DNA from: Sphagnum magellanicum
Taxonomy: Eukaryota > Streptophyta > Sphagnopsida > Sphagnales > Sphagnaceae
Assembly: GCA_021904315.1 (NCBI GenBank)
Contig: CM038923.1
Location: 9,182,038-9,246,037, forward strand
Direction of reading: 5' to 3'
DNA length: 64,000 bases
This document shows positions 17,278-55,820 of this stretch, piece by piece. Both the position numbers and the translations under genes were made by a program. The notes beneath the pieces were generated by a model. The model searched no databases and was not told the origin of the DNA. It saw only the letters and a list, made by a program, of their open reading frames with translations. Numbering within the stretch: position 1 is the stretch's first letter; the number at the start of each line of letters is the position of its first letter.

Positions 17278-19708
17278 TTTGCCTTTCAACTTTGCATTCA
17301 AACCAAGCTTTTGGAGTGCATTCAATTGTCCAAGAGATGAAGGTAGTTCTTTTAGGTTGGAACACTCGTTTAAAAAAAGCTTTTGGAGTGCATTCAATTG
17401 ATCAATAGATGAAGGTAGTTCTTTCAAGTTGGATCACTCGTATAAATAAAGCTTTTGGAGTGCATTCAATTGACCAATAGATGAAGGTAGTTCTTTCAAG
17501 TTGGAACACCCGTATAAATAATGCTCTTGGAGTGCATTCAATTGGCCAATAGACGAAGGTAGTTCTTTCAACTTGGAACACTCCGACAAAGTAAGCTCTT
17601 GAAGTTCATTCAATTGGCCAATAGATGAAGGTAGTTCTTTCAAGTTGGAACACTTCGACAAAGAAAGCTCTTGGAGTGCATTTAATTGGCCAATAGATGA
17701 AGGTAGTTTTTTCAAATTGGAACACTCCCACAAAAGAAAGCTCTTGGAATGCATTCAATTAACCAATACATGAAGGTAGTTCTTTCAAGTTAGAACACTC
17801 CCACAAATCAAGCTTTTGGAGTGCATTCAATTGGCCAATAGATGAAGGTAGTTCTTTCAAGTTGCAACACCTACTCAAATAAAGCTCTTGGAGTGCATTC
17901 AATTGGCCAATAGATGAAGGTAGTTCTTTCAAGTTGGAACACATGTATAAATCGAGCTCTTAGAGTGCATTCTATTGGCCAATAGATGAAGATAGTTCTT
18001 TCAAGTTGCAACACCCACTCAAATAAAGCTTTTGGAGTGCATTCAATTGGCCAATAGATAAAGGTAGTTCTTGCAAGTTGGAACACTCCCGCAAATAAAA
18101 CTCTTGGAGTGCATTCAATTGGCCAATAGATGAAAGTAGTTCTTGCAAGTTGGAACACTCCCGCAAATAAAACTCTTGGAGTGCATTCAATTGGCCAATA
18201 GATGAAGGTAATTCTTTCAAGTTTAAACACCCATATAAATCAAGTTCTTTGAGTGCATTCAATTGGCCAATACATGAAGGTAGTTCTTTCAAATTGGATC
18301 ACTTGTATAAATAAAGCTTTTGGCGTGCATTCAATTGACAAATAAATGAAGGTAGTTCTTTCAAGATGACCCACCTATATAAATCAAGCTCTTCGAGTGC
18401 ATTCAATTGGCCAATACATGAAGGTAGTTCTTTCAAGTTGGAACAATTCCGCAAATGAAGCTCTTGGAGTGCATTCAATTGGCCAATAGATGAAGGTAGT
18501 TCTTTCAAGTTGCAACACCCACTCAAATAAAGCATTTGGAGTGCATTCAGTTGGCCAATAGATGAAGGTAGTTCTTTCAAGTTGGAACACCCGTATAAAT
18601 CAAGCTCTTGGAGTGCATTCAATTGGCCAATAGATGAAGGTAGTTCTTGCAAGTTGGAACACTCCCGCAAATAAAACTTTTGGAGTGCATTTAATTGGCC
18701 AATAGATGAAGGTAGTTCTTTCAAGTTGGAACACTCCCACAAATCAAGCTTTTGGAGTGCATTCAATTGGCCAATAGATGAAGGTAGTTCTTTCAAGTTG
18801 GAACAACCGAATAAAGAAAGTTCTCGGAGTGCATTCATTTGGCCAAAAGATGAAGGTAGTTCTTGCAAGTTGGAACACTCCCGCAAACAAAACTTTTGGA
18901 GTGCATTCAATTGGCCAATAGATGAAGGTAGTTCTTTCAAGTTGAAACACTCTGACAAATCAAGCTTTTGGAGTGCATTCAATTGGCCAATAGATGAAGG
19001 TAGTTCTTTCAAGTTAGAACACCCGTATAAAGAAAGCCTTTAGAGTGCATTCAATTGGCCAATAGATGAAGGTAGTTCTTTCAAATTGGAACACCCGTAT
19101 AAAAAAAGCCTTTGGAGTGCATTCAATTGGCCAATAGATGAAGGTAGTTCTTTCAAGTTGGAACACGCGAATAAAGAAAGCTCTTGGAGTGCATTCAATT
19201 GGCCAATAGATGAAGGTAATTCTTTCAAGTTGTAACACCTACCCAAATGAAGCTTTTGGAGTGCATTTAATTGGCCAATAGATGAAGGTAGTTATTTTAA
19301 GTTGGAACACCCGTATAAATTAAACTCTTGGAGTGCATTCAATTGGCCAATAGATGAAGGTAGTTTTTTCAAGCTAAAACAACCATTCAAATCAAGCTCT
19401 TGGAGTGCATTCAATTGGGCAATAGATGAAGGTATTTTTTCCAAACTTAAGCATTCCGTCAAATCAAGTACTTTTAATTGTAAACAATAAAACAAATTAC
19501 TTGGCAACTTTCGAATCTTGCATTTTTTGAAACACAACCATTTAACATTATTCAAATTTCTCTTTTGGATGCACATTTTCACAATAGTTGGTGAGGCTTC
19601 TGTTAGGTCCATCAACCTAAGGTTGTGAAATCCCTTTGAGCCAATTTGGGACAATGGAAGCAAATTGACACATTTTTTCAATGAAATGCCTTCTAAATTT
19701 TCCACCAC
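17278..19708 (-). pseudogene. HNL1 LRR exon: 72-bp repeat array with many stops
   Basis: After a degenerate start (VVENLEGISLKKC, then WLCFKKCKIRKLPSN) come about 30 nearly identical 24-residue repeats around LxxLxLxxCSNLKELPSSIGQ. The frame is broken at 19,292 (Glu position), 19,040 (Gln), 18,299 (Cys), 17,972 (Leu), about 17,943 and 17,759 (Gln), and 17,434 (Cys), and there is a 1-base insertion near 17,735. Between the stops the longest open stretch is 18,299-19,012, 237 codons. The array ends with GLNAKLKGKK and TGA at about 17,278. Against HNL2 it is about 362 bp longer, close to five repeat units. The near-identity at DNA level implies recent expansion or exchange among units. Confidence 0.85.
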
Positions 19709-22700
19709 CTATCACATGAAATGAAAACAAAAGGATTATCAATATATAAAAATATTTCATCCTAATGCAAATTTTTTTATTAAAAACATGTATTTATAAA
19801 ATCAATATTGAAAGGTAAAACATTTGATTTTGGACATAAAAGAAAATCATAAGAACTCAAAAAAAATTTATAAGATTGAAATAGTATGGTGACAACCTCA
19901 TCATTTCGTAAAAGGAAATTTGACTTATTTGATTTCCATATAAAGCGATTCATGATTGGAAATTCCATTACAATACTTTGACCCATGTCTCGTAATTGTT
20001 CATGGATGTACAAGATTCCACCTTCTGCCCTTTGAATTAAAGATCTATGTTGTAAATTTTGTAATCCAGATTTTGGGTGTAAATAATCTCCATTCCACGC
20101 TCGACAAATTGTACTTATTTTCAAACCACCCAAAAAACAAGCCATATCCAAAAACATGTTTTGATGTTCCTTATCCAAGTATTCATAAGAAATTTTCAAT
20201 TTACTCCAAAGCTCTTCATTATCGTTGCCCCCGGTGAAACTTTGCCCGCTTTTCAATTTGTTCAATGCATCTTCCCAAATTTCCAATTCTTTGGTATCGC
20301 ACAAAAAAGAACCCAATACTTTAATACTTAAAGGTAGCCCCCCGCAGGTTTTTATAATCTTCATACATATATCTTTGAAATCCTTCGTGAGAACATGATT
20401 TGCATTTCCGAATGCATGGAACATAAAGAGTTCCCTTGCTTGCTCTTCCTCCAAAAATTTCATGGCCATTTTTCCATCCTCGCTTACATGAGATTTCAGA
20501 TTTTGCCAATTTCGACAATTCACAAGTACTTTGCTTTTAGAAGTTGTATTCCTGGCACACTTACTAATGAGAAATTGCAAGGATGTAAGGTTCTCCGCCT
20601 TACCAACATCATCCACCACCACCAACACTTTTTTGGATTCCATACATTGGCTAATTTGGTCAAGGTCTTTTTGATACACATTTTCATGCTTGCATAACCT
20701 TTTGCCACACAAATCATGTAGGAGCTGTTTTATGACATCATTGATATTGTCCTTTGATTTCACATCCTCCAAAAAACTAGACTTGTCATATTGGTTGTGA
20801 AACAAATGATAGAATTTTTTGCACAAAGTGGTTTTCCCAATCCCACCCATTCCAACCAAACCAACAATAGATTCCTTTTGTAACAAGACGTTTATGTCTT
20901 TTGCTTTGCCAATCAACGCCACTTCATGACATGGCAAAGGTGGAAGTAATACATTTTTCTGTCAAAATTCACAAAATATAGGTCATTTATATGTTATCTT
21001 TCTTATTTGATAACCAATATATATGACATTGCATGTGCAATACACATCAAGTGTGCTATGACTTAATGTGTATTAAATTACATGAACAAATTTGAAATCA
21101 AGACTTAGATTTGATGTTTTTACCTCCATACATATTTTCAAACATTTTAATAATAAATAATAACTTGGATGATCTTTGTTTGGTGGCTTGCAAATTGTCA
21201 AGTGATTAGCATCCTCAATTTTGTAATGGTTGTTGTTTGACAATTGAATAGCTGAGGCAAATGGCACTAAAATTCCCTGCATGTTCAAAAGATTAAATTA
21301 ATGGAACTCATTGACGTGTTTGTTCACTTATGCTTTAATTTATAAGTAACATAATAATTTCAAATGGTGGTGGAAACTATAGCTTAATAATTATTGATGT
21401 TTGAATAAAAATGAAATATTTTGTGTAAAAGTAATTTCTTTCAACCCTTTGGCAAGCAAATTATATAAATACATCACAAAGTTATTGGTTTTTAATCTCA
21501 TTAAATTTACGTGTTTTAATTATGTTATGATTTTCTTCAGAAATACTTATATGGAATTGATTTGATGAAGGGAAATTTAAAACCTATTTCTTGCTGTTTG
21601 AAATCAATCAAATTTCCTTTCCATCAATAGTAATTCATGAACCAAAGGTCATAAAACACATGACCTGTTCACCAAATTAATATATTTAAAAGTATCGAGT
21701 ACATGATCACACACAAATTGTGACAATACAAAAAATGTTCAAATAATGAACCTAGTTGGATAATTTTCAATGTCGTGAAATGAAAATCTTACCCAATTCT
21801 CATCAAGTGGTAATCCTTCACCAAATGCATAAATGTTGAGGTCTTCTTGAAAGGCATTTTTAAAATCCGTTGAAAGGTGTGCCATTTGTGAGTTGAAAGA
21901 TTCTAAATTTTTCAAAAAACCAAATTGGGTTGCATACTTGCTCAATGTGTTGATTTGTCGATGGTGCCAAGTGAAATAATTTGATAAATATTGGGAACCA
22001 CCAGCATGTGGTACACCATAAAATACTACACCTTTAACATTGTTCAAAAATGTCTTACAACATTTGTGTACTTCATCATCTAAATCATTTCTTGGCCTTT
22101 GATTTACATGTTTACAAGCTTCAACCACCAAGCTTTTGAGTACAAGACCTCCAAAACTGTAAGCAACTAATGCCACCGGTCCATCCCAAAGGTATCGATA
22201 ACTATAAAATATTCAACAATGCACCAAAATTCCATTATCAACATTATATTAACATGTACAAATTTATCTTGTTATACTTGGGGCAATTTTCCAATTCACA
22301 CAAGACATAAACCATAAGTTCATAATTGATTTGCTTGTCATTTATTGTTTACCATTTATTGACTCCATAAATCTACCTAAAAACTATGACAACCATGTTT
22401 TGGTAAAACAATTATCATGTACAAGTATGTAGGTGTTTACATTCTTTTGTTAATGTACAATTCATCTTTTCTGCGTTACCTTGGAAATATAGTTGAAATA
22501 AAAATATATATATGCCCTTTTTTTGAAATTATGTTTTTGCAATGAAATGGATGGAAATTTTCTATAGGTGTATTAATATAATATAATTCAATTCAATTAC
22601 ATTACCAAAGATAAAACTTCAAAAAACACGAATTAAAATTTGCCATCTAAAACCAAACTAGTTGTACCTTGAGCTTATAATATGAACATAAACTTTGCTA

Positions 22701-23225
22701 CTATCTTCAAATAAGAACAGTTCCATTGAAACCCCATTTTATGTTCTTTTACATAAATCTCACAATTCAAATAAATGGAAACTTGTTAGTGTGTGTCACA
22801 ATTTTAATACACATGAACAATTAACTTGAGCAAAACATTAAAAAAATCTAAAGATGTAAACAATTATCATTAATGTACACAAGGGGAAATAATTATTATG
22901 TCCATAAATAGAGGAGATTGTCACACCTTGAATTTGTAACCAAGCTTTGAATGAGGTTTTTGCCAATTCCAATCACATCATCGTGAACACTTGCCACAAT
23001 TTTAGAATCATAGGACAATGATAAAATTCGAACATTATTGTTCAAGTCTTCGGGTAGCCACTTTTCTGGCCAGCATACGCACTCTTTTCTATTCTTGGTG
23101 GGGTATGTTGTCCATGTTTCTTTCCATTCATCATTTGTGCCAAGAGCAATCCCATGGAAAAAAATGATGGTCAAGTTTGGATTATTGGAATTGCAAGTGG
23201 GATTTAAATCATGCACTAGATATTT
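17278..23225 (-). CDS. HNL1: alpha/beta-hydrolase-NB-ARC-LRR receptor, truncated in the LRR
   Basis: Five exons on the minus strand join in one frame: 23,225-22,927, 22,201-21,793, 21,276-21,124, 20,958-19,897 and from 19,708. All four introns have GT-AG ends and matching phases. The first four exons encode 641 residues (hydrolase about 1-287, NB-ARC from about 288). The LRR exon adds 138 residues and stops at TAA 19,292-19,294; LRR coding remnants continue to about 17,278. Proteins of this class are predicted intracellular immune receptors, with the NB-ARC as an ATP/ADP switch and the LRR as sensor or autoinhibitory region. The start codon is not settled: an upstream exon is expected but none joins in phase. 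Of the three loci this is the one most likely to make a protein, though with few LRRs. It may be a pseudogene. Confidence 0.8.
19709..19896 (-). other. HNL1 intron between NB-ARC and LRR exons
   Basis: This is a short phase-0 intron (188 bp) with donor GTTGTC and acceptor GATAG. The part nearest the LRR exon is retained at the solo LRR locus up to about 11,003 (equivalent to about 19,800 here), so the break that made the solo copy fell inside this intron. Confidence 0.85.
19897..20958 (-). CDS. HNL1 NB-ARC exon
   Basis: This single exon of 354 codons lies between the acceptor TTTTGACAG and the donor GATGAG|GTTGTC. It shows the P-loop GMGGIGKTT (about 20,853-20,827), kinase-2 VLVVVDDVG, an RNBS-B-like SKVLVNCRNW, GLPL as CGGLPLSIKVLG, an RNBS-D-like ACFLGG and an MHD-position motif reading YIHEQLRDMG. 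The kinase-2 motif ends without Trp, as in TIR-type NLRs, and the downstream LRDMGQSIV also resembles TNLs, although no TIR is present. The MHD Asp is replaced by Glu in both full copies. The protein would bind and hydrolyse ATP in the cytosol or nucleus. The exon has no frameshift or stop. Confidence 0.9.
21124..23225 (-). CDS. HNL1 hydrolase-domain exons (SERAC1-like alpha/beta fold)
   Basis: Three exons form the N-terminal hydrolase. The first (23,225-22,927) has the beta-strand and oxyanion-loop sequence LTIIFFHGIALG, then CWPEKWLPEDL and RILSLSYDS. The second (22,201-21,793) has the nucleophile elbow VAYSFGG, with Ala in place of the first Gly of GxSxG, followed by VKGVVFYGVPHAG, typical of SERAC1-like proteins. 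The third (21,276-21,124) has DANHLTICKPPNKDHPSY, where the His is the likely catalytic one. Serine and histidine are therefore both present, so the fold may be an active serine hydrolase; no substrate is known for the class. A phase-1-type split codon (Ser) joins exons one and two. All three exons are open in this copy, unlike in HNL2. Confidence 0.8.
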
Positions 23226-23979
23226 CTGCAAACAAAATGAAAAAGAGTCAACACAATTCTTCAAACACCTCTTGAAAATTATTTGACTATACATTAAATA
23301 GAGAAATAGACTATACAAATTATAATAGTTAGATAAAGGCAATAAGTAATTGAAAATATTAAGTTCAACAAGAAGATAATAATAGATGAATTGGAGAATA
23401 CCAAATCTATCTTGCAGGACTAACAAATGAAGATCAATCACATGTGTCATAGACCTCAAAGTTTCAAAACAAAGTTAAATAAGTAAATATCGTTACATAG
23501 GAGGTGGAACGTATGCCAATCAATAAAGGTTAATGCTAAGAATTGGATTCTTTCAAGTTTGGGTTGATTAACTCAACCATCTAGTTTGGTTCATTTGTAT
23601 TTCATGACATTTCCCCCAACATTTGGGTCACTAAGGCCTCCAACTCCTAAGGAATTGGGACACAAACCCAATAAGAATGTCCAAGAACATTTTATTAATT
23701 TTCTTTAGGTTGTTGGATCAAGACTACACATTGAACTTAACTCATAAATCTATAATGAAAGTTCCAATCTTTACAAGTTCAATATATTCTTCGTTAATGC
23801 CAAGTGAGAAATTTCCCTTTCACCAATTCTACTTGTTATATAGCAACTGAGTCGGCAGCCTAATGTAAGAGGCTATAACGATGACTCCATATCCTATTGT
23901 GTTTATCTAAACAAACAAACTGGAAAGTAGGCAAAGTGAAAATGTATGACAAGGAAGCTTGTACATGATTGACAACATT

Positions 23980-24100
23980 CAAGTACCCTAGTGGCTAAAG
24001 GTTACGGTTGCAAAGCTGCTGGTTGGGAGTTCAAATCTGAACTAGACCTCCTTCTCCTGATGCTTTGTGAGGACAATAAACTATTATGGTTGTAATGGTC
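23980..24100 (+). mobile_element. tRNA-derived SINE-like element in the 5' region of HNL1
   Basis: An A-box-like TAGTGGCTAAAGG at 23,989-24,001 is followed, with usual spacing, by a B-box-like GGAGTTCAAATCT at 24,026-24,038, both on the plus strand and so antisense to HNL1. This is the internal Pol III promoter layout of a tRNA or a tRNA-derived SINE, but the flanks do not fold as a tRNA. The same element sits at the same place in unit 2, so it predates the duplication. Confidence 0.5.
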
Positions 24101-24176
24101 AAGGAAAATTATCAACGCGCAAACAAAATTCAAAAAAGCAAAGAAAATCAAACTTCAACATGTAACTTGGAAAAGC

Positions 24177-24536
24177 TCAAGAAACAAATGTGCAAAGAAA
24201 GCTCATGATAAGATGAAGAAGAAGCACCACATTGCTGTGCCATCCAGAGCTTGAAGGAGCATTTTCAGCAGGGACCAAAGGTGTCTCAGTAGCAGCAGGC
24301 ATCCGCACAATGTCTTTACTAGGGAAAAGCCAAGAAAAAACTATGCCAAGAAAGCTCATAATAAAATTAAGAAGAAGCGCCACATTGCTCTGCCACCCAG
24401 AGCTTGAAGGAGCATTTTCAGCGGGGACCAAAGGTGTCTCAATCACAGCAGGGATCCCCACAACATCTCTCTGTCTTTTTGGTGGCTCTTGTGAAAGATC
24501 AACTCCTTTTCCCTTGAGGCCATATGAATTTGCCAT
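24177..24536 (-). CDS. Small membrane-protein frame upstream of HNL1, internally duplicated
   Basis: The frame from ATG at 24,536 gives 119 residues: a basic start (MANSYGLKGKG, then PPKRQRDVVG) and two copies of a 51-residue module with ETPLVPAENAPSSSGW followed by a hydrophobic segment ending IMSFL. The two modules are a 153-bp tandem duplication in frame, with starts at about 24,248 and 24,401 on the plus strand. Unit 2 has only one module. The frame ends in TGA where the first module has Trp. It lies on the HNL strand about 0.95 kb before the first hydrolase exon, so it may be the first exon of HNL1 giving an N-terminal membrane anchor. However, I find no good donor in the needed phase, so it could also be an independent small gene. 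No known family. Confidence 0.45.
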   Translation of the reverse strand: MANSYGLKGKGVDLSQEPPKRQRDVVGIPAVIETPLVPAENAPSSSGWQSNVALLLNFIMSFLGIVFSWLFPSKDIVRMPAATETPLVPAENAPSSSGWHSNVVLLLHLIMSFLCTFVS

Positions 24537-24740
24537 ATTTTGCACTACTGAAATTCCTTTTGCTCACTGCTCTCATGAATATTTTTTTCTCGAGCTTTTG
24601 CTCTCAGAAAACCTGCTACAAATCCTTTGCCATCCCAAAAGCATACACAGGGTATGATGGGTGTCCCTCACATCACAGATTCCCGCAAGCTAAGTTGATC
24701 TTTCCGCTAGATCTCCCCAAAAACATCAACCCCTTTCCTC

Positions 24741-25636
24741 TTCACGATGTCCCTGGAATTCCCACTCTCTTCTCTTACTCCTTTTTCGACTTTCCTCACA
24801 GATGTTTATTCTTCTTCATTTTCTTCTCCCCCAGAAACTTCTAGAAGGGTTTTTCCGTGACTTTTCAGACTGTAGCATACGCGCTTTACCGATTTCTTGG
24901 CCACTGAATAATTCATTACTTTCTTTTCTGGAACACATGTCTGTATTTTCTACTCATAATTGAGGATGGAATATGCAACGTCACCTTGAGACTTGTCCAA
25001 CACGCTTTACTTTTTCCCTCTGGCCTCCTCCATTCTTATCATCATGACTTTTGTTCACATCCACACACCGACCTCTCCTTTACCAATAAAACTATAGCCA
25101 AAAAAAAAAACTAAGTCATAAATTTAAAAAGTGCTAAAATCAAATGCTTTTTGAGATTCTCAATAGCCAGAATCCAACCAAATTCAAAGAAAAATCGTGA
25201 GATTTCCATACATGGTTTTCCAGTAGGTAGCCAAAAATAAAACAAACATGTTTAAAATTTTCTATTGCCATATTTAGCTCATAGCCAAATCCGACTAAAT
25301 CTTCCTACCGATGATAGCCACTTGGGCTATATCTCAAAACTGACCCAAAAAATATTGATCCACACGTTTCCTGCTGTTTGCCGATTTCACTCAGTGCATT
25401 ATTGAAGCGTTCTGCCAGAGCTCATGTTGCAGCCAATGCATGATTAATTGGGCCTTGGGCGAACCGGCCAGGGTGAATTCACACCCATATTGGGATCATG
25501 GTAAAAACCTCCAAAACCCATTCAAATGGCCATATTAGGCCTCAAAAATTATAGATTTGGACTTTGGGACTCCGATTTAGTCTAGGGAAACGAAATTTAT
25601 AAATATCTAGAATATTTATGAGCAATTTAAATGGGC
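24741..25636. other. Sequence present in unit 1 but deleted from unit 2 (upstream of HNL1)
   Basis: Unit 2 runs from the equivalent of 24,740 straight to 25,637 (joint at about 57,182). The missing about 0.9 kb lies immediately upstream of the small frame and HNL1, so the two HNL copies have different 5' regions and possibly different promoters. I see no gene here. Confidence 0.8.
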
Positions 25637-26686
25637 TTCGCGGGGTCAATTTGCCTTGGTCAGGTGAACATGGCCTATATTAGAACCATGGTGAAAATCC
25701 CAAAGCTTTTGGGGGCAGCTTCAAAACATTATAGACACATGTAGCGTCCTTAGACAAAATCAGGGTCTCTGAATCTACAACCCGAAACCCTAAACCTATA
25801 CCCAAAAGGCCTCACTCAGGAAGGTGAGTGTACCAGTGTAGGTGCTGGTGCGCCCTGGCCAGTGGCTATGATTGGAGGAGCCTGGGAGGAAAATGAAAAA
25901 TTACATGGATGGTCAGAGCTAATAAATCCGGAGTGGAAAAACAAAAGAAATTCTCTACAGAGCAGTGATTTTTCTTGGTGAATTTTCGCACTGTGGCTAC
26001 AAATTTTTTTTGAAGAAATTGGGAAAATTCGTTTTAATAGTCTGAGTTTGAGAGAAAAATGCTCAAAAAATGGAAAAAATAGACAATGTTTACAAACTGC
26101 AAAATTGAGAAAAAAAGAAAAAGAAAAAGAAAACACTGTTTCAGAGGTATATATATATATGTCTGCACTCTAAATAAATGATGGAAAAACATGTTGTAAA
26201 ACTAACGGCAACATTAGACGAGGGTCCAAGGTCCAGGGATCAATGAAATCAAGCAATCTTATTGGTCGAAAGCTTTAAATTGGACCCAAGGCCTTTAGAT
26301 GAGGGTCCAAAACCAAAAAGTGGTAAATTGAGGCTAATATGGCACCAGTTTTGGAAGGAAAATCAATTAATTTAAACAAAAAGACAGTGCTAAAAGGAGA
26401 GCCCCTGATTTGGAGAACCAAGAATCAGGCTATGGACCAAGGTACACTCCAACTCAAAGGATTCTATTTGCTTCACATGAGTCCAAATTGGTTCCTAGGA
26501 AATTGGACCCTCAACCTTGGTCTAAAGTGGGCCTGCCTAATGGTGTTTTACTGCGAGACCCTTTTGACTCCTTATGTGGAGAACCACAATCAGCACAATT
26601 GACATCTGGTGCAAAGTGCAAACATGTTGGATCCAAGATCTGAGGCATTAGCCTAGTGAAAGCCATCAACTTTTTTCTCATTTTTG
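25637..26686. repeat. Right end of duplicated unit 1
   Basis: This stretch matches 57,183-58,230 and stops matching after the shared CTCATTTTT at about 26,686. It includes a purine-rich run (26,110-26,130), a TA dinucleotide run near 26,150 and two copies of GAGGGTCCAAG about 80 bp apart. No gene is visible; the open frames at 25,816-26,643 do not persist between the copies. Confidence 0.75.
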
Positions 26687-26888
26687 GTTTTGTGACCTGC
26701 TTTGTGTTATGGTGCTCACAACCAAGTCTGTTGTTTGTGAAGGAATTGGGGAAACCTGTATTTAATGGCCAGGCTGAACCTGCTCCTACACTAATACATT
26801 CACCTTCTTGAATGAGCCCTTTCCCCCATAATAACTCCAAGACGCATCAAAGAAATGTTAAATTTGAACTCAGAGACCCTGATTTAGT

Positions 26889-27239
26889 CTAAGGCCCGCT
26901 TTACCCTACGAGTCAGGGCTGAAAAAACTTGGAGCCGAGTTTGAGCATTTTTGGCTTTTTGTCTGGCCCCAAGTTACTAATAAATGCTACAACATTGGCC
27001 ACAAGGGTTGCAAATTGGCTTCCCAAATTTGATGGTGTCCTTTTTTTCAGCCTTGGGGCCAATATCATAAAGTTCAGCATTTACTAGTAACTTGGGGCAG
27101 ATTGAAAAGATTTTGCCTATTTCAGCCTTGACTCCTAGTGTAATTTAGCCCTTGGGGCTGATTTCAACTATTGCACCAATAGGTATGCATGATTTGAGTT
27201 GAACATCCGCCTCGACTCCTAGTGTAAAGTGGGCCTAAG
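26889..27239. mobile_element. MITE-like element with imperfect terminal inverted repeats
   Basis: The left end 26,889-26,917 and the right end 27,211-27,239 are inverted copies matching at about 23 of 29 bases. Inside is a second inverted pair, 26,967-26,988 against 27,076-27,097, matching at 21 of 22. There is no coding potential. The size of about 350 bp fits a non-autonomous DNA transposon or a fold-back element. Target-site duplications are not clear. Confidence 0.55.
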
Positions 27240-27564
27240 AGCAGCTCCACAGGTGCTGGGTATATGGCTCTGGACAGTAAATTTTGGTTCCGCACAATGG
27301 GTTTGGCCTGGACATTTTCCCTGAGAATAATACCAAGGCAGGCAAAAGGCTCAGCAAAGGACAATACCTGCTGTTGACTGTTGGATAGACTCTTAGACAG
27401 GTGGTTGGTCCAAGTGGGTTGCTAGTAGCTATTATTGGTTACTGATCATTTGCAGTGTCAGTTTTAGTGTGTGGTTGAGAAAAATAAAAAGAAACTAATC
27501 CTGGTTTCGAGAAATATTGTGTTCCATTGCCATATACTCAGAGCACGTCTGGAGCTGCTCTGAA
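27237..27564. mobile_element. Second MITE-like element (GAGCAGCTCCA ends)
   Basis: The left end GAGCAGCTCCACAGG and the right end, read in reverse complement as GAGCAGCTCCAGACG, form terminal inverted repeats; the similarity continues inward through TATATGGC for about 45 bp. The length is about 325 bp and no coding frame is present. The element abuts the right end of the preceding one, so one may have inserted at the edge of the other. The superfamily cannot be assigned without a clear target-site duplication. Confidence 0.6.
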
Positions 27565-42321: not shown

Positions 42322-42369
42322 CTACCTACCTACTAACAACCTACTTATGGGTTGTTAGTAGGTAGGTAA
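42322..42369. repeat. Inverted repeat (hairpin), unit 2 copy
   Basis: The arms at 42,322-42,340 and 42,351-42,369 pair at 18 of 19 positions, with a 10-base loop. One arm has lost a pair relative to the perfect unit 1 copy. Confidence 0.8.
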
Positions 42370-43800: not shown

Positions 43801-45795
43801 AATGCTTAATACTTGTCAAAGCAGAACACCTTTTAACTTGTTGAAATGTTTGTCCATAGCTTTATTTCATGAACATATGTGCAATTTTTTTGAGTATCTT
43901 GTTTAAGTTAATGTCACCCAAGGGGGTCATAATTTCCAACTTCCAAATATTTGTTTCTTGTTTTCCTTGTTTGCCACAATTGGTTGGAATCAATGACTAA
44001 AATCCTCAAAGTAATACTTGGCTAGGGTTTTTTTTTCAAGCATTGACATAATACAAGATCAGTTGATTAAGGTTTAAGGTTAACATGGATGGATACTGAT
44101 CTCGCATTATTGTTTTGTGCTTTGTAAGCTTATTTATAGATTTTAAAGTTTGACACATTTATTTTCGATATCACAACAATGTTGTTTGGTTGCTTCATGG
44201 GCTTGCTGACGGTGTTTATTGATTTCAATTTCTTTTGAATTGAATATGACAAATGGGGTCATTTCATAATGAACTTGGTTGGGCCTTTTCACATTCCATA
44301 AGAGCTTACAATTTGATCTAAATTGTACTGATTTACAAATGTCATTTAAACATAAAAATGTTTTAGGATCTTAAACTTAATCGAATGTGGAGGATGCAAT
44401 GAAGAATAACTTTTATGTGTTTGTTAGTGGACACACCATTGGAATCAACAATAACAACAATTGTTCAAGTTTGTTGAATGCTGGTAGTTGTGCAAGATTT
44501 TCTTCATGTGGGTGAATGAAATTCTGTATGGTTTGTTTTCAAGTTGGGTGTGTCATGTTATGCAAGGATGGTGACAATTTTGGAGCACCACCACTAAAGG
44601 CAGCCAGAGCTTGGGCATTAGAAAAAAATATTCCTTTCTTAATTAGGCTAAATATTATCAAGGCTCTTCAAGGTGGAGCGAGATCCTAACCATCTAAAAG
44701 TCCCAAAAAATCAACTACTTATATTGGGTTGTCATAATTATGTATAGAAATAGAGGTGAATAATTTATTCATTTGAATTATGGGCTGAGAATCATGGAGC
44801 CGAATTTTTGAAAATGCTTTTTTAATGTGTGTGGTGAATTTGTGTGGATGATTTATTGGAACTACAATGTTTGAAGTTTGAATTACCTAATCATGGCAAT
44901 GATTTCAAAATTTAGGAAAAACAAAATCTAACAGGATTTTGTCAAGATGTCTAATGATATTCACAAGGGACCTTCATCAAATAATTTACCGAAAAGAAGA
45001 TTACACTAGTTGTTTATTATTATAACCATCAATAGAATATTATTTTGGGCAACCATTGTAACCATGATTTGTAATGAAGTATTCTGATTGTGAGTTGAAT
45101 ACATTAGCAAATGCATTCATTGAGTGGTTGTCATAGAGGCCTTCAGGGGCCAAAAACATCCCCACTTGCCCACAATGTTACTTGAATTTTTGTCATTAAA
45201 TTGGAGTTATATGATTGTTGGTAGATGTTATATCACGTGGATTAGAAAGTTGGTCCATAAAAAATGAAGGTTGAAAATGGTGATGAAGACATTTTTTTGG
45301 TGAAAATAAAAAAACTTAACCGATGATTCTTTGGTGCAGTAGAGGGTTGGCAAATCTCTTCATGTTTGTGATGATCTTCTTGCATCCAAAGGTCACAATC
45401 ATAGAATGTTATTAACCTTTCTAATGACCTCAAATCCCTTTGCTACAGTGAAGAAAAAAAGTCTTTTCCATGTCATACCCAATCATTACTAATGCAAAAT
45501 TGAATTTGTTTATATGTTTTTAACTTGTAATGCTTGATGCAATTTCAAATTGATGATCATTATGTTAGATTTTGATTGATGATCTTATATGTTGCATTTT
45601 AATTGATGATCATCCTAGTGACTTTCCACACACTAATGACATTTCATAATTGAGTATCTCTTTGGATTTATGATAACCTTGTTTTTCCTCCAAAGGACCT
45701 GATAAATATGTCACAATAAACTTTGTCTTTGCTTTGGATACACAATGCCCTTACTTTCCAAGACTTGAGAAAAAAGTAATAATGGTTCCATCTTT

Positions 45796-48700
45796 TGTAA
45801 GTTGAAACTTGAACTTAACATATGTGTGATTACATGACATAAAAGACTATAGAAAGCTTTAATAGGTTGCATGTCTAAGTTCAACTATTACGTCACGTGA
45901 AAAAGTTCGAAAATGATGAAAACCTATTAATTATCAATAAAACAAAAAACCCAACAAAGGGGGAGTAAAAGGTACAAGATGGAAGGACCCAAATCCTGCA
46001 AAATTAAAAAAAATTTAAAGAGGGCAGATCGCAAGGGGAACAAGGAGAAATCAAGTACTCGAACCCTCCCCCCCAATTGGGAGAAACATATCAAATAAGG
46101 AGTGCGGAGGAACACCTAAAAGAATGCCTAGCCTACATGAACCTTCAACTATAATAACAACACACCTCAAAATAAAAGTTGTCTACGCTCAGTATAATGC
46201 CACTAACACCCTCTACATGTAAAATGAAGGCAAAACTTGCATAACATAGAACATATGTTACTTTTAAGTCCTAAGGTTTCCCCTTCCTAAGGTAGTTTCA
46301 TTTTTCATACCTAGATTTTGTGAGAAGTTCTACCATTGTTTTTTCCACAGTGACCCTTGATGAAAGATTATAACTCATGAAATGCACTAATGTAGCCTAT
46401 GTCATTGGCTTGAATGTGAATTAGTCACCCATTTTTTCCTTCCAAAACTATTTTTTTGTAATTTAATTGAAATTCAAACAAAAAAAATTATTCAACATTC
46501 AATATTTTTCACAAATGCCATCAGACTTTCGCAAATCCAAATGCCTTCATTAAATCCTATAAATTGAAAATTTTCTAACAATACCAAGAGTGTGCCCAAA
46601 TTCCATTATAATATTTTTATTTAAAGTCATTTTCAATGATTTTTATTTCTTTTCAATAACTTCTTCACTATAAGTTGAAACATTATGAAACCAACTTGAT
46701 ACACCCTAATTCATTGAAAACTTTCCAACGACATCGAAAACGTGACAAGATGCACCATGGTTTGGGAAATTTCAATGTGACAAACAAATCAAGTAAACTA
46801 CCTTCTTTCATAGATAAATATTGGAGGTTTTCAAAGACCATAAGTGAAGAAAAAACTTAATAAAAATCATCATTCTAAGATTTGATTTTTAGTGTGTAGT
46901 CAAAAATATTTTTAAATGATTAAAGATTTGTATTTCATATTTGGTTCTAACCAAATTTGGCTAAATCCTTTTAAGGATGATATTTTTACAAACAAAAATT
47001 CTTAAAAAGGAACAATAACCATCACCTATGTGATATATATTGGCACCTTCACTTTAGGGTGAAATCTTTTATTATAGAAATTCCACATATGCATCATACA
47101 CCAAATTTCAGATGAAATATAGCCAATATATGCATTGTTGGGGCATTTGGGCCAATAAACTAGGTTTGACTTGGTAAATGATCACATGATTCAATAGTTG
47201 AAATGGGTGCGTTCATTGCTCCATGTGCAAGTGTTTAAAATTTATCACTAGTTTGTTGAAGCATATTCACATGTGACATTGGAGAGCTTGTTATGATTTC
47301 TTGTGTTTTTGTCAATTGGAATGAATGTTTTACCTATTGATGAATGTGGTAAGAGTTCATGAAACATGACCCTACCATTCTCTTTTCTACCATGAATTTT
47401 TGTGTTTTATTTTGGCAAGATGTTGGTCAAGTCTTGTAGAACCTTGGAAACAAATGGTGAAACATCTTTAATGCCAAAACTTTCTATTGTATTTCCAATG
47501 ATGTTTCTTACTTTCCCTACAAATACAATGATAAAAAATGGATTGAATTTTCTTCAATATAAGACATAATATTGTTAATCTAGGATCCACACTTTTGAAA
47601 TAGGATTGAAAAATTAAATATAAGACTTAATTAAGCTCAATATATGGAAGATTGGGTTTCATAAAACAAAAATGGAGTTGTAACCCAAGAATCCAATTCC
47701 TAACACAAGATTGCATGTCTTAATGAAGAATTGAGGTTTCTAAATCATGGATCCAATTTTCTAAAAACTATTAGGTAATAAATGTTCCTACAAAATCAAG
47801 GACTCGTATTCCCAACTCAAAATGATTTAATTCATTTCCTTGCAAAATTTCCTATATTTTAGAAAATTATAAAGTCTTGTACTAAGACTTATTAAGGATT
47901 CTAAATTCTTGAAACCACACCTTGGTTCCTAAAAAAAATAGTGGTTTGACACATCTTGTGACAAAAATTATGAAGGTGCACTAATTGATCTTGACCATGT
48001 GTATGTATGAAATTCATTAAGGATGATATTAAAAAGGAAATTAAGATTCAATGAACTAGACAAATTCATGTTCATGAAGATTAAGGATTAAAAGAGAACA
48101 ATGGAAAATTGATTCTTGAAGACCATAAATCTTGAAACAAAACACACAAATGAATGGAAATAAATAACATAAACATGTAGACAACAAAATGTATTCAAAA
48201 GTATGTTTCACATGTTTGAAAATGAAATGTTGAGTGTTTCCATGGGAAGTGATCGTACCATATTCACTTTTATTTTCATGCCCACCCTTCCTTGAACATC
48301 CTTGGAATCTAGCTTTAAACCCGAAGTTGTGCACCAATTTGTAGTAAGATGGCGTCACAAAAAGGAACAACACAATGGGACAAAGTTGTATGTATTCTCT
48401 TATACACCAAAGGTGATAGGTATGTTCAAAAAAGGTTGTCAATAAATTATTGCAACTAAATCACAATCCACAAAGATGGGATGTGGGGTAGTTGCAAGAT
48501 AGGGTGGCTCATTTTCATCACATTGAATTTTCTACATATTGTATTCTATTCAAATGTCATAAACATATGGTGAAATCAACAATGTGACAAATTAAAATTG
48601 CCAATTTGAATAAGAGTATGCACATAATAATGAAATTCAAAAGAATACACCAAACATACAATCATGAACTTTCATTAAATTATTATAGTTATAGTAATTA

Positions 48701-49880
48701 ATTTTGATTAAAATCATTTTACTACAATTTTTTATTATTTTTATTACTGTGTAAAATATTAAAACTAATGTAAAATTAATGTTGTACTAATAACTATTCA
48801 CTTTTCAATAAAATATCATAACTTTTACATACAATAAATTATTATAATTGGATTATTTTAATTACAATAAGTACATTAATTATTCAAGTTATAATAAAAT
48901 CACCATATAAATTTTAATTTTTAATTTTAATTATAAATTTTCAATATTATTACGAAGTGTAATTACATATTATATAAATTTGAAATAAATTTTTAGCATT
49001 GTAAAAAAAATTAATAATAAAGGTGAATTTTTATTTTGGAAAAATAATTATTCCCTATAAATAGATAATTATAAACAATAGATATATTAAATTTTACAAC
49101 AATGATGATAATTACATTAGTTAATCGAATTACATTATGATGAGTGTAAAAAGATTAAATATGGGTTTTAATTATAAATTTTAATTTTTAAATAATTTGA
49201 TTATTTATAATTATTTATAACTTTTTTTGGGAATTAATTTAATTACAATAATTCTATGATAATTATTGTACTTGTTTTCTAGACACCTATGGATGATTGA
49301 CGTATTGCCACCTTTACATATACCGATATACAATAATAGTTTTCTCAAACCATCCCTAACTAATCCACAAAAAAATACATATATATACCATTATGAATGT
49401 GGAGTACATAATGTATACATAAGGTTTACTATACATAATTGTTAGTTACCATAACATAAAACACATGATTTACCCTATGCAAAATTAGTAATATACATAA
49501 CTTAATGTCTAAATAAGTATTAATTACTAGTTTTTGGTCACTTTTGCAATTAATGGGCCAAATAAAGGCCTTCTAAAAATAATGTGAAAAGTCATTCCAT
49601 TGGAAGAATGAAAAACCTATAAATAGTTGCAACATAGTCATAAAATGTGACCAAAAAATGTGTGATGTGATTTTCCATCACAATTGTAACCAATGTAAAG
49701 AACAATTGGTCCCATGTAATCACAAATAATTTGGTTACGTTTTAGCCTTTTTCTACTAGTGACAATGCTTCTATTGACGAAAAAGTCCTTTCTTTTTTTG
49801 GGCATCAAATTATCCTTGTCCGTATATATATTTTTATGCATTGAAGTATAGAGAAAATTAGTTTTATTATATATTTTTTC
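45796..49880. repeat. Duplicated non-coding block B2, downstream of HNL2
   Basis: This is the full-length counterpart of 4,303-8,400, including the AT-rich stretch (about 48,570-49,280). It ends where the 3' flank of the HNL2 LRR exon begins. No gene is recognisable. Confidence 0.85.
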
Positions 49881-50254
49881 AATGCCAAATTTCTTTCAAT
49901 AGGGAGCTCAGGTCACATCTTGATGTGAATAATATTTCCTTGGAAGCTGAATCATTGATGTCCACCATCTATCATGGAACTTAGGATTTGAATGTTTCTG
50001 AGAAATCATCAATTAACTTGATAGTTTTCAAAATCTACCTATTGGGTTCTTTCAAAGATAACGAACATATCGTCATCACTATGGTTTTCTTAGCTTTCAA
50101 AATTTCAATAAATATTTGTTTCTTAAAACTAGATACATGCATACCAATGTTTGTAGAACATGGCACAATGGTTGTAGTCATGTTTACTAAGTAACATTTG
50201 TAATTGAGGTGTTGACATAATATGTAAAATTGCCTAACATTCGTTTTTTGCCTT

Positions 50255-52315
50255 TCAACTTTCCATTCAAACCAAGCTTTTGGAGTGCATTCAATTGACC
50301 AAAAGATGAAGGTAGTTTTTTTAGGTTGGAACACTCATTTAAAAAAAGCTTTTGGAGTGCATTCAAGTGGCCAATAGATGAAGGTAGTTCTTTCAAATTG
50401 CAACACCCACTCAAATAAAGCTTTTGGAGTGCATTCAATTAACCAATAGATGAAGGTACTTCTTTCAAGTTGGAAACTTCGATAAAGAAAACTTTTGGAG
50501 TGCATTCAATTGGCCAATAGATGAAGGTAGTTCTTTCAAGTTGGAACACTCCGACAAAGTAAGCTCTTGGAGTGCATTCAATTGGCCAATAGATGAAGGT
50601 AGTTCTTTCAAGTTGCAACACGCACTCAAATAAAGCTTTTGGAGTGCATTCAGTTGCCCAATAGATGAAGGTAGTTTTTTCAAGTTGGAACACCTGTATA
50701 AATCAAGCTCTTGGAGTGCATTCAATTGGCCAATAGATGAAGGTAGTTCCTTCAAGTTGCAACACCCACTCAAATAAAGCTTTTGGAGTGCCTTCAATTG
50801 GCCAATAGATGAAGGAAGTTCTTGCAAGTTGGAACACTCCCGCAAATAAAACTCTTGGAGTGCATTCAATTGGCCAATAAATGAAGGTAGTTCTTTTAAG
50901 TTGGAGCACCCGTATAAATAAAGCTCTTGGAGTGCATTCAATTGGCCAATAGATGAAGGTAGTTTTTTCAAGTTGGAACACCCATTCAAATAAAGCTTTT
51001 GGAGTGCATTCAATTGGTCAATAGATGAAGGTAGTTCTTTCAAGTTAGAACACCCGTATAAATAAAGCTCTTGGAGTGCATTCAATTGGCCAATAGATGA
51101 AGGTAGTTCTTTCAAGTTGGAACACCCACTCAAATCAAACTGTTGGAGTGCATTCAATTGGCCAATAGATGAAGGTAGTTTTTTCAAGTTGGAACACCCG
51201 TATAAAGAAAGCTTTTGGAATGCATTCAATTGCCCAATAGATGAAGGTAGTTCTTTCAAGTTGGAACACCCGTATAAAGAAAGCTCTTGGAGTGCATTCA
51301 ATTGGCCAATAGATGAAGGTAGTTCTTTCAAGTTAGAACACCCGTATAAATAAAGCTTTTGGAGTGCATTCAATTGGCCAATAGATGAAGGTAGTTCTTT
51401 CAAGTTGGAACACTCCAACAAATCAAGCTCTTAGAGTGCATTCAATTGGCCAATAGATGAAGGTAATTCTTTCAAGTTGGAACACTTTGACAAATCAAGC
51501 TCTTGGAGTGCATTCAATTGGCCAATAGATGAAGGTAGTTCTTTCAAGTTGGAACACCCATCCAAATCAAGTTTTTGGAGTGCATTCAATTGGCCAATAG
51601 ATGAAGATAGTTCTTTCAAGTTAGAACACCCATATAAATTGAGCTCTTGGAGTGCATTCAATTGGCCAATAGATGAAGGTAGTTCTTTCAACTTGGAACA
51701 CCCATTCAAATCAAGTTCTTGTAGTGCATTCAATTGGCCAATAGATGAAGGTAGCTCTTTCAAGTTGGAACATTTCCACAAATCAAGCTTTTGGAGTGTA
51801 TTGAATTGGCCAATAGATGAAGGTAGTTCTTTCAACTTGGAACACCCACTCAAATCAAGCTGTTGGAGTGCATTCAATTGGCCAATAGATGAAGGTAGTT
51901 TTTTCAAGTTGGAACACCCATTCAAATTAAGCTCTTCAAGTGCATTCAATTGGCCAATAGATGAAGGTAGTTTTTTCAAGTCAGAACATCCATTCAAATC
52001 AAGCTCTTGGAGTGCATTCAATTGGCCAATAGATGAATGTATTTTTTCCAAACTTACGCATTTCGTCAAATCAAGTACTTTTAATTATAAACAATAAAAC
52101 AAATTACTTGGTAACTTTTGAATCTTGCATTTTTTGAAACACAACCACTTAACATTATTCAAATTTTGCCTTTGGATGCACATTTTCACAATAGTTGGTG
52201 AGGCTTCTGTTAGGTCAACCAACCTAAGGTTGTGAAATCCCTTTGAGCCAAGTTGGGACAATGGAGGCAAATTGACACATTTTGTTAATGAAATGCCTTC
52301 TAAATTTTCCACCAC
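50255..52315 (-). pseudogene. HNL2 LRR exon: 72-bp repeat array
   Basis: About 25 units follow the same opening as in HNL1. The stops at 52,085 (Gln codon) and 51,431 (Gln codon), a 1-base deletion near 50,475 and a TAA near 50,437 divide the array into long open stretches of 212 and 318 codons (51,431-52,069 and 50,465-51,421). At the end CGA replaces the TGA found in the other two copies, so the frame runs on to TAA at 50,187-50,189, adding about 20 residues after KLKGKK. Confidence 0.85.
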
Positions 52316-52502
52316 CTATCACATGAAATGAAAACAAAAGGATTATCAATATAAAAGAACATTTCATCCTAATGCTTATGTTTTTAAGAAGAACATGTAT
52401 TTATAAAATCGATATTGAAAGGTAAAACATTTGAAATTGCACATTAAAAAAATCATAAAAAATCAAAAACAATTTATAGGATTGAAATAGTATGGTGACA
52501 AC

Positions 52503-53564
52503 CTCATCTTTTTGTAAAAGGAAATTCGACTTATTTGATTTCCATATAAGGCGATTCATAATTGGAAGTTCCATTGCAATACTTTGACCCATGTCTCGTA
52601 ATTGTTCATGGATGTACAAGATTCCACCTTCTGCCCTTTGGATTAAAGATCTATGTTGTAAATTTTGTAATCCAGATTTTGGGTGTAAATAATCTCCACT
52701 CCACGCTCGACAAATTGTACTTATTTTCAAACCACCCAAAAAACAAGCAATATCCAAAAACATGTTTTGATGTTGCTTATCTAAGTATTCATAAGAAATT
52801 TTCAATTTACTCCAAAGTTCTTCATTATCATTGCCCCCGGTGAAACTTTGCCCGCTTTTCAATTTGTTCAATGCATCTTCCCAAATTTCCAATTCTTTGG
52901 TATCGCACAAAAAAGAACCCAATACTTTAAGACTTAAAGGTAGCCCCCCACAAGATTCTATAATCTTCATACATATATATTTGAAATCCTTTGTGAGAAC
53001 ATGATTTGCATTACCGAATGCATGGAACATAAAAAGTTCCCTTGCTTGCTCTTCCTTCAAAAATTTCATGACCACTTTTCCATCCTCACTTACATGAGAT
53101 TTCAGATTTTGCCAATTTCGACAATTCACAAGTACTTTGCTTTTAGAAGTTGTATTCCTGGCACACTTACTAATGAGAAATTGCAAGGATGTAAGGTTCT
53201 CCGCTTTACCAACATCATCCACCACCACCAACACTTTCTTGGATTCCATACATTGCCTAATTTGGTCAAGGTCTTTTTGATTCACATTTTCATCCTTGCA
53301 TAACCTTCTGCCACACAAATCATGTAGGAGTTGTTTTATGACATCATTGATATTGTCCTTTGATTTCACATCCTCCAAAAAACTAGATTTGTCATATTGG
53401 TTGTGGAACAAATGATAGAATTTTTTGCACAAAGTGGTCTTCCCAATCCCACCCATTCCAACCAAACCAACAATAGATTCCTTTTGTAACAAGATATCTA
53501 TGTTTTTTGCTTTGTCAATCAACGCCACTTCATGACATGGCAAAGGTGGAAGCAATATATTTTT
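52503..53564 (-). CDS. HNL2 NB-ARC exon (open)
   Basis: All 354 codons are open. The P-loop GMGGIGKTT, VLVVVDDVG, CGGLPLSLKVLG, ACFLGG and YIHEQLRDMG motifs are kept as in HNL1. Changes from HNL1 are mostly substitutions outside the motifs (for example DKAKN for GKAKD near the start, and KEEQARE for EEEQARE). The exon is flanked by inactivated exons, so its open state may reflect recent loss rather than function. Confidence 0.85.
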
Positions 53565-53729
53565 CTGTCGAAATTCACAAAATATAGGTCATTTATATGT
53601 TATATTTTTAATTTGATAACCAATATATATGACATTGCATATGCGATACACATCAAGTGTGCTATGACCTAATGTGTGTCAAATTACATGAACATATATG
53701 AAATCAAGACTTAGATGTGATGTTTTTAC

Positions 53730-55820
53730 CTTTGTACATATTTTCAAACATTTTAACAATAAATAATAACTTGGATGATCTTTGTTTGGTGGCTTGCAAA
53801 TTGTCAAGTGATTAGCATCTTCAATTTTGTAATGGTTGTTGTTTGATAACTGAATAGCTGAGGCAAATGGCACTAAAATTCCCTGCATGTGCAAAAGATT
53901 AAATTAATGGAACTCATTGATTTGTTTGTTCACTTATGCTTTAACTTATAAGTAACATAATAATTTCAAATGGTGGTGGAAACTATAGCTTAATAACTAT
54001 TGATGTTTGAATAAGAATGAAATATTTTGTGTAAAAATAATTTCTTTCAACCCTTTGGCAAGCAAATTATATAAATACATCACAAAGTTGTTGGTTTTTA
54101 ATTTCATTAATCTTACATGTTTTAATTATGTTATGATTTTCCTTACAAATATTTATATGGAATTGATTTGATGAAGGGAAATTTAAAACCTATTTCTTAT
54201 TGTTTGAAATCAATCAAATTTCCTTTCCATCAATAGTAATTCATGAAACAAAGTTCATAAAACACATGACCCATTCACCAGATTAATATATTTAAAAGTA
54301 TTGAGTACATGATCACACATAAATTTTGACAATACAAAAAATGTTCAACTAATGAACCTAGTTGGATAACTTCAATGTCGTGAAATGAAAATCTTACCCA
54401 ATTTTCATGGAGTGGTAATCCTTCGCCAAATGCATAAATGTTGAGGTCTTCTTGAAGGGCATTTTTAAAATCCGTTGAAAGGTGCTCCATTTGTGAGTTG
54501 AAGGATTCTAAATTTTTCAAAAAACCAGATTGGGTTGCATACTTGCTCAATGTGTTGATTTGTTGATGTTGCCAAGTGAAATAATTTGATAAATATTGGG
54601 AACCACCAGCATGTGGTACACCATAAAATACTCCACCTTTAACATTGTTCAAAAATGTCTTACAACATTTGTGTACTTCATCATCTAAATCATTTCTTGG
54701 CCTTTGATTTACATGTTTATGAGTTTCAACCACCAAGCTTTGGAGTACAAGACCTCCGAAACTGTAAGCAACTAATGCCACCGGTCCATCCCAAAGGCAT
54801 TGATAACTACAAAATATTCATCAATGCACCAAAATTCCATTATCAACATTGTTTTAACATGTACAAATTTATCCTATTATAGTTGGGGCAATTTTCCAAT
54901 TCACACATGACATAAGCCATAAGTTCGTAGTTGATTTGCTTGTCATTTATCATTTATTGACTCCATCAATCTACCTAAAAAATGTGACAACCATGTTTTG
55001 GTAAAATAATTATCATGTACAATTATGTAGGTGTTTACATTCTTTTGTTAATGTACAATTCATCTTTTTTGTGTTACCTTGGAAATACCCTTTAAATAAA
55101 AATAAAAATATGCCTTTTTTTTGAAATTATGTTTTTGCAATGAAATGGATGCAAATTTTCTACACATGTATTAATATAATATAATTCAATTCAATTGCAT
55201 TACCAAAGATAAAGCTTCAAAAAACGGGAATTAAAAATTGCCATCTAAAATCAAACTAGTTGTACCATGAACTTATAATATGGACATAGACTTTGATATT
55301 ATCTTTAAACAAGAACAATTGCATTTAAACCCCATTTTATGTTCTTCTACATGAATTTAACAATTCAAATAAATAGAAACTTGTTGGTGTGTATCACAAT
55401 ATTAATACACATGAACAATTAACTTGAGCAAAACATTAAAAAAAATCTAAAGATGTAAACAATTATCATTAATGTACACAAGGGAAGTAATTATTGTGTC
55501 CATAAATAGAAGAGATTGTCACACCTTGAATTTGTAACCAAGCTTTGAACGAGGTTTTTGCCAATTCCAATCACATCGTTGTGAACAGTTGTCACAATGT
55601 TAGAATCATAGGACAATGATAAAATTCAAACATTATTGTTCAAGTCTTCGGGTAGCCACTTTTCTGGCCAACATACGCACTTTTCTCTATTGGTGGGGCA
55701 TGTTGTCCATGTTTCTTTCCATTCATCATTTGTGCCAAAAGCAATCCCATGGAAAAAAATGATGGTCAAGTTTGGATTATTGGAATTGCAAGTGGGATTT
55801 AAATCATGCACTACATATTT
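53730..55820 (-). pseudogene. HNL2 hydrolase exons, first one with a stop
   Basis: The first exon keeps FFHGIAFG and CWPEKWLPEDL but ends early at TGA 55,626-55,628. The second keeps the nucleophile elbow VAYSFGG and FYGVPHAG, with VKGG in place of VKGV just before. The third keeps DANHLTICKPP. Splice sites match those of HNL1. Confidence 0.85.

Follow-up and report, generated by a model that had tools for sequence, protein, structure and literature searches.

Does a moss chromosome encode a receptor that carries its own enzyme, and could the copies seen here still work? The window analysed, i.e., a stretch of 64,000 nucleotides of the peat moss Sphagnum magellanicum (C17:9182038-9246037, contig CM038923.1), carries two loci that a sequence-only reading had assigned to the HNL class (also called Hyd-NLR), in which an alpha/beta-hydrolase precedes an NB-ARC domain and an array of leucine-rich repeats (LRRs). 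We searched the genome around it (438,994,042 bases in 31 contigs) for relatives, and found that the assignment holds for the hydrolase, the NB-ARC and the introns alike. We think it likely that the loci are two paralogous HNL receptor genes of the peat moss, with sensing by the LRRs, clustering by the NB-ARC and output by a serine hydrolase. The class is already published; it had been presented to us as one described from liverworts, which is correct as far as it goes, but it is also on record from Sphagnum and Ceratodon mosses. The window genes are ordinary, well-placed members of this known receptor class, and what they add to it is a 5' exon (exon 0), a shared exon cassette and dispersal together with flanking DNA.

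Both loci lie on the minus strand and encode first the hydrolase (three exons), then the NB-ARC (one exon) and then the LRRs (one exon), in the order that had been proposed; the NB-ARC reaches 113.2 bits in locus 1 and 112.7 bits in locus 2 (Pfam cut-off, 23.5). The alignment of locus 2 with locus 1 is 92% over 6.65 kb and the junctions are identical in place, with four introns of phases 2, 0, 0 and 0 at both loci, again as predicted, and GT..AG at all four in locus 1. The phase-0 introns that the HNL class requires (within the hydrolase, before the nucleotide-binding site, NBS, and after it) are all present; besides these there are a 5' intron and one of phase 2 within the hydrolase. The expected absence of TIR and kinase domains holds by Pfam, which matched neither in the scanned exons; by the same scan, the genes lack the TIR domain of the TNL class. 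Along the LRR array of locus 1, 29 positions match a 300-base reference at intervals of 72 bases (once 73).

How regularly are the two domains linked? With hydrolase exon 2 as query, 150 hydrolase matches were scored out of 335 candidates, and the NB-ARC exon gave at least 116 matches; both lists are lower bounds, and the counts of partners that follow hold among the matches listed. An NB-ARC of the second list lies within 3 kb downstream, on the same strand, at 108 of the 150 hydrolase matches, and at 121 when the 125 scored Pfam NB-ARC matches of the genome are added. The class had been supposed to be rare, but in this genome it is not. Conversely, a hydrolase lies upstream of 107 of the 116 window-type NB-ARC matches, and no opposite-strand or reversed pair occurs (150 against 116 matches). 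Upstream of the 125 Pfam matches there is a window-type hydrolase in 59 cases, a hydrolase of another type in 27 and none in 39.

The flanks travel as well. Copies of the 3' flank (13400-16800) were found at 39 or more places, the window's own included, on 14 contigs; 31 of the 39 adjoin a hydrolase exon within 20 kb in the expected order and orientation, and none does so in the wrong orientation. At least 40 places on 14 contigs carry the 5' flank (23300-26500), 38 of them likewise beside a hydrolase and 1 with a wrong-way neighbour (in each search the best 40 candidates were scored; 43 of 130 rows were used for the 5' flank). Flank copies beside HNL genes (13400-16800, 23300-27813) are mostly 82-96% identical, and several matches of 26400-31400 stop at two common points, near 27630 and 27813. 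In a few cases, stretches of up to 31.4 kb are repeated near HNL genes, in varying order and orientation. On this evidence, the DNA flanking an HNL gene is copied along with the gene and dispersed on many contigs, and the fixed order of the domains is therefore, by itself, no proof of one transcript.

The splice sites speak more directly to this point. We fetched 20 loci, including both window loci, and all of exons 1-4 are present in 19 of them; the other, L033, has exons 1-2 without exons 3-4 and was left out of the comparison. Homologues of the four junctions that the sequence-only reading had named were found in these 19, with few exceptions. Intron 1 has GT and AG throughout, intron 2 has GT in 16 loci and GC in 3 with AG in 18 (exception L045), and intron 4 has GT in 18 (exception L043) with AG in all, its acceptor being located by the best match to the start of locus 1 exon 5. 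At the hydrolase/NB-ARC junction (intron 3), the donor is GT in 18 of 19 loci (exception L031) and the acceptor AG in 19 of 19. All four introns are GT..AG in 13 loci, or in 16 when GC is allowed. This conservation argues against the hydrolase and the NB-ARC-LRR being two separate adjacent genes that were copied jointly, as do the same phase-0 junction in a divergent locus, L007 (see below), and the N-terminal domains of nine Marchantia HNL genes, which were obtained by 5' RACE (rapid amplification of cDNA ends) according to the text of PMC3352924. We regard separate genes as very improbable, even with a one-mRNA structure that is itself inferred from DNA and with flanks whose joint travel makes order a weak proof.

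The hydrolase is best judged by its residues, numbered from the exon 1 acceptor. Ser115 is conserved in 18 of the 19 loci and lost in L043, whose NB-ARC is broken too; Glu228 and His261 are conserved in all. Over 171 pairs of the 19 loci (among them two broken rows, of which one has a frameshift in the NB-ARC), the ratio of nonsynonymous to synonymous rates (dN/dS) is 0.38 pooled (median 0.39) for the hydrolase and 0.50 pooled (median 0.44) for the NB-ARC, and the median dN is 0.058 and 0.084, respectively, against about 0.12 in introns 1 and 2. Both domains show purifying selection, and the hydrolase is a putative Ser-His enzyme. It could instead be a non-catalytic signalling scaffold, a role of which plant EDS1 is an example. 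Consistent with a scaffold, the serine elbow reads AYSFGG in 16 of 19 loci and departs from the canonical GxSxG, neither the fold nor the PDB search supplied a template with a catalytic site, and we found no activity data for the HNL family, nor a substrate for its hydrolase, in the literature covered. The loss of the serine only in a decayed gene, the invariant Glu228 and His261, and the GHSFGG elbow with a similar histidine motif (EDANHMEVCKP) in the second-clade locus L007 make a scaffold unlikely and favour the enzyme.

Profile searches placed the hydrolase less firmly than the NB-ARC. The profile check that had been suggested succeeded for the NB-ARC of both loci; for the hydrolase it failed at locus 1 (DUF676, 16.9 bits; cut-off 20.3) and succeeded with one relative (25.0 bits). 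From NCBIfam there were two weak matches to hydrolases, found in 2 of the 8 members compared (best E 0.0044), and PHROGs gave nothing below E 0.098. The PADLOC model PDLC02918 (DUF626_VIII), a bacterial defence candidate, matched all 8 moss hydrolases given (best E 8.1e-10) and none of 14 control genomes; its match to locus 1 (exons 1-3, residues 44-275) is weak, at 29.2 bits, and may reflect only a common hydrolase fold. Hydrolase alignments were also run against bacterial genomes in two scans, neither of which turned up a relative; this result is of little weight, as the search patterns lay off the serine elbow.

Against solved structures, the window NB-ARC scores best with Roq1 (127.6 bits), followed by 7crb, which we take to be the TNL RPP1 (71.2), ADR2 (67.8), an RPW8-domain protein (67.8), MLA13 (64.5) and RPP13-like protein 4, presumably ZAR1 (40.0). 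By these scores it falls in the TNL/PNL/HNL superclass and not with CNLs. The P-loop GMGGIGKTTL is found in 18 of 19 loci. In the LRRs (282 units from 17 of the 19 loci), positions 14, 16, 18 and 19, presumably the exposed positions of the LxxLxLxxC strand, are the most variable: their mean entropy is 2.52 bits (0.54 at the remaining positions), and the ratio of nonsynonymous to synonymous changes, crudely counted, is 2.02 (0.43 at the other 20). Such variability suits a recognition surface, although the exchange of sequence among repeats calls for caution. In one relative, L035 (C4:26.5 Mb), the frame at L035:1857-3299 (-) runs on past the LRRs, which may indicate an integrated domain; the last 480 residues of its exon 5 have no PDB match below E 0.12, and no Pfam families other than LRR were found in that exon.

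Upstream of the chain lies a further exon. An open frame containing MANSYGLKGKGVDLSQ sits on the same strand about 1.1 kb upstream of exon 1, and its protein matched 138 stretches of the genome that form 118 places. At 106 of these it lies 1.15-2.67 kb upstream of hydrolase exon 2 on the same strand; an opposite-strand hydrolase is within 5 kb at 3. Exon 0 was found for 107 of the 150 hydrolase matches, 46 of the 118 places are less than 60% identical, and 86 have a stop-free piece. We take exon 0 for a coding exon, predicted to be followed by a fifth, 5' intron, with a possible phase-0 donor after 195 bases in both loci; it is outside the span of the sequence-only reading, whose end (55820) is the exon 1 acceptor boundary of locus 2. 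Exon 0 ends in 15 hydrophobic residues (mean hydropathy 1.97 and 2.06 in the two loci) that may be a membrane anchor; the best 19-residue window, at only 1.26 and 1.35, does not bear out a full transmembrane helix. Locus 1 has an in-frame duplication of 51 codons of exon 0 (24165-24468). A start codon in the MYSQ stretch at 23294 was considered and rejected: that stretch is unlikely to be coding because its ATG is missing in 8 of 19 loci, a stop precedes the acceptor in 2 of 19, and the GCAG acceptor of exon 1 is invariant across loci where the stretch upstream is not.

How would such a receptor act? The LRR array would recognise a non-self or modified-self ligand, and the TNL-type NB-ARC would then exchange nucleotide and cluster the protein. 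Clustering may switch on the serine hydrolase at the N-terminus, perhaps at a membrane via the hydrophobic end of exon 0, and a product of the hydrolase or a change in lipids might set off defence responses or cell death. From outside, the strongest support comes from two hydrolase domains of Marchantia, which caused responses like the hypersensitive response, with ion leakage, in N. benthamiana, as described in the text of PMC11218826, which also gives EDS1 as missing in seed-free plants.

Several observations weigh against this reading. Some matches listed have no partner, i.e., 29 of the 150 hydrolase matches, the 39 of 125 Pfam NB-ARC matches mentioned above and 20 of 47 hydrolase stretches of the second type, and a conserved pair of neighbouring genes would yield an equal linkage count. 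The one-transcript structure is a prediction from DNA, and since the 19 loci are closely related paralogues, what they conserve does not count as independent evidence. The locus 1 hydrolase stays under its Pfam cut-off, the hydrolase alignment used as a profile against the PDB found matches at chance level only (best E 0.21), and a single-sequence fold of exon 2 is of low confidence (mean pLDDT, the predicted local distance difference test score, 45.5). At 32 of its 118 places, exon 0 has no stop-free piece, though the stops may fall past the donor. The LRR ratio comes from crude counting, in repeats that may have been homogenised by conversion, and stops interrupt exon 5 of locus 1 and both the hydrolase and the LRRs of locus 2. 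Finally, a passage of the review PMC11850516 calls canonical NLRs absent from mosses, naming orthologues of angiosperm genes, RPM1 and RPS4 among them.

The closest known systems share the architecture. The Marchantia polymorpha HNL (Xue et al. 2012; PMC3352924, in the part covered) has an N-terminal alpha/beta-hydrolase, NBS and LRR, and phase-0 introns inside the hydrolase and on either side of the NBS, as here, at positions that may differ in detail. The window genes differ in belonging to a moss, a group from which that work obtained no HNL, and in their extra phase-2 hydrolase intron and 5' exon. Bryophyte Hyd-NLRs (PMC11218826, 2024; review PMC10952240, 2023) have the same architecture and come from the same plant group. 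In fungi, NLRs with a sesB-like lipase (PMC4986451, 2014) likewise carry the enzyme N-terminal to the nucleotide-binding domain; they differ in their C-terminal ankyrin, WD-40 and TPR repeats, and the likeness to HNLs is one of description only. The same article, in the passages used here, equates the sesB-like domain with the lipase domain of human SERAC1, described with phospholipid esterase activity, and cites the sesB-related hydrolase of a bryophyte NLR (Xue et al.); a link of the moss hydrolase to SERAC1 would rest on that article.

Are the window copies themselves still receptors? In locus 1, exons 1-4 are open; its exon 5 has a TAA after 138 codons and seven further stops in the same frame over 2,460 bases. 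Locus 2 has a TGA in the hydrolase, where the other 18 rows have an Arg codon, and a TAA after 76 codons of exon 5. The C-terminal LRR arrays are present, but each exon 5 frame meets its first stop early. Across the family, exons 1-4 are open in 17 of the 19 loci as aligned from the exon 1 acceptor (locus 2 and L043 are broken; L031, with a shifted donor, may be out of frame), and exon 5 frames of at least 500 codons occur in 10 of 19, the window's two not among them. Relatives that look intact lie, for example, at C7:4.24 Mb, C18:17.75 Mb and C2:7.91 Mb. As assembled, locus 2 reads as a pseudogene, whereas locus 1 keeps an open hydrolase-NB-ARC frame whose LRR domain would be a stub only. With such early stops, both copies look past the stage of a working receptor. 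We are somewhat inclined to regard them as dead relics, with receptors only among relatives elsewhere: the stops in both loci point that way, as does a third copy, a lone LRR exon that shares the early stop of locus 2. This view has to contend with the open exons 1-4 and the GT..AG introns of locus 1, with stops in a 72-base array that could be long-read assembly errors, and with the ability of truncated NLRs to act in angiosperms.

The history of the window is one of nested duplication. Positions 1-1613 pair with 36690-38297, 1815-4303 with 38297-40801, 4302-10574 with 45794-52048, 13284-16894 with 44159-47760 and 17659-24310 with 50268-56905, and 4302-6275 also pairs with 14920-16894. Since the third copy carries the early stop of locus 2, this stop is probably older than the duplication that gave rise to that copy. 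The duplicated locus of the sequence-only reading does contain two related copies, but they are no simple tandem pair. In a tree of the 19 loci, locus 1 clusters with a copy at C15:13.45 Mb (support 100/99), while two copies at C17:8.1 Mb join locus 2 with lower support (84/83); the window pair are therefore not mutual nearest kin among these loci. The suggestion that such genes expand and decay was well founded, with more than 100 relatives, both window copies broken and the third reduced to its LRRs.

Table 1. Exons and copies of the HNL loci in the window (positions in the window; strand in brackets in the third column).
Feature	Position	Strand	Remarks
Locus 1 exon 0	24342..24536	(-)	65 codons from ATG; 15-residue hydrophobic end; putative phase-0 donor GTTTTT
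Locus 1 exon 1, hydrolase part 1	22927..23225	(-)	begins at conserved TTTGCAG acceptor
Locus 1 exon 2, hydrolase part 2	21793..22201	(-)	Ser elbow AYSFGG and FGEG
Locus 1 exon 3, hydrolase end	21124..21276	(-)	conserved His in EDANHLTICKP
Locus 1 exon 4, NB-ARC and Roq1-type winged helix	19897..20958	(-)	
Locus 1 exon 5 to first in-frame stop	19292..19708	(-)	138 codons; TAA 19292-19294
Locus 1 LRR array	17228..19544	(-)	72-base (24-residue) units; further stops and frame change inside
Locus 2 exon 0	56784..56978	(-)	65 codons; putative donor GTTGTT
Locus 2 exon 1	55525..55820	(-)	in-frame TGA 55626-55628
Locus 2 exon 2	54398..54806	(-)	
Locus 2 exon 3	53730..53882	(-)	
Locus 2 exon 4, NB-ARC	52503..53564	(-)	
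Locus 2 exon 5 and LRR array	50263..52315	(-)	first stop TAA 52085-52087, then more stops and frame change
Third copy, LRR exon only	8385..11004	(-)	own acceptor and about half of intron 4; early stop as in locus 2

Other features of the window include two DHBP_synthase fragments (cut-off 26.4 bits), one in each duplicated block and facing opposite ways, at 12854-13261 (+) with 30.9 bits and at 43408-43815 (-) with 27.3 bits. A frame with TMEM62 Ig-like and C-terminal domains (34009-35049, +) lies between both HNL loci.

A related hydrolase is also found on a second receptor chassis. A genome scan with the PADLOC model gave 47 stretches, none overlapping the 150 window-type hydrolase matches, and 27 of them have an NB-ARC downstream. 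In L007 (about L007:1-3180 (-), C9:2.12 Mb), the hydrolase is joined to a CNL-type NB-ARC-LRR. Over exons 2-3 this hydrolase shares 47% identity with that of the window, while the NB-ARCs share only 27%; as in the window genes, one phase-0 intron lies inside the hydrolase and one precedes the NB-ARC, both at matching places. Its exon 2 also seems to begin one base ahead of a codon, like the window's, exon 1 being outside the fetched stretch. The L007 NB-ARC scores 120.4 bits with NRC1, 114.9 with RPP13-like protein 4, 113.8 with MLA13 and 62.7 with Roq1; Pfam recognises the winged helix WH_DRP, and NB-ARC and LRRs share one exon, unlike in the window genes, where the LRR exon is separate. It scores 276 bits against L006, another NLR of this genome, and 63 bits against the NB-ARC of the window. 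L006 is without a hydrolase match upstream, and its upstream frame begins MVEP, which resembles the CC-MAEPL type of PMC11218826; going by its sequence, we label it a putative CC-NLR.

Because the introns are common to both hydrolases, the same exon module was probably involved in both clades. On balance we favour an exchange of exon cassettes, in which the hydrolase, with its introns and phase-0 3' boundary, was joined to a TNL-type and to a CC-NLR-type chassis and the resulting units were multiplied and dispersed; the second clade is represented here by one locus, L007. The related hydrolase and the two introns of the same place and phase could also stem from one ancient fusion, after which the NB-ARC merely diverged. 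That course seems improbable to us, with hydrolases so much closer than their NB-ARCs and with each NB-ARC scoring far higher outside the pair (the L007 NB-ARC with L006, the window's with Roq1). In the text of PMC11218826, most bryophyte hydrolase-NLRs fall near bryophyte TIR-NLRs, a minor Sphagnum subclade lies in the CC/RPW8 lineage, and independent acquisition is suggested. In the parts covered, PMC11218826 and PMC10952240 contain neither exon 0, nor the dispersal with flanks, nor an intron comparison of the two hydrolase-NLR clades, and we found no such comparison in the part covered of PMC3352924.

If the cassette exchange is true, effector domains of plant NLRs would be exchangeable through intron-mediated shuffling. 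A large family in one genome, some of its copies decayed and others apparently intact, offers a natural comparison; Ser, Glu and His are conserved in nearly all 19 loci, and a related enzyme sits on two chassis. The hydrophobic 5' exon alters the choice of constructs worth testing. If both chassis use the same Ser-dependent step, it would be the enzyme, and not the switch, that sets the output of these receptors.

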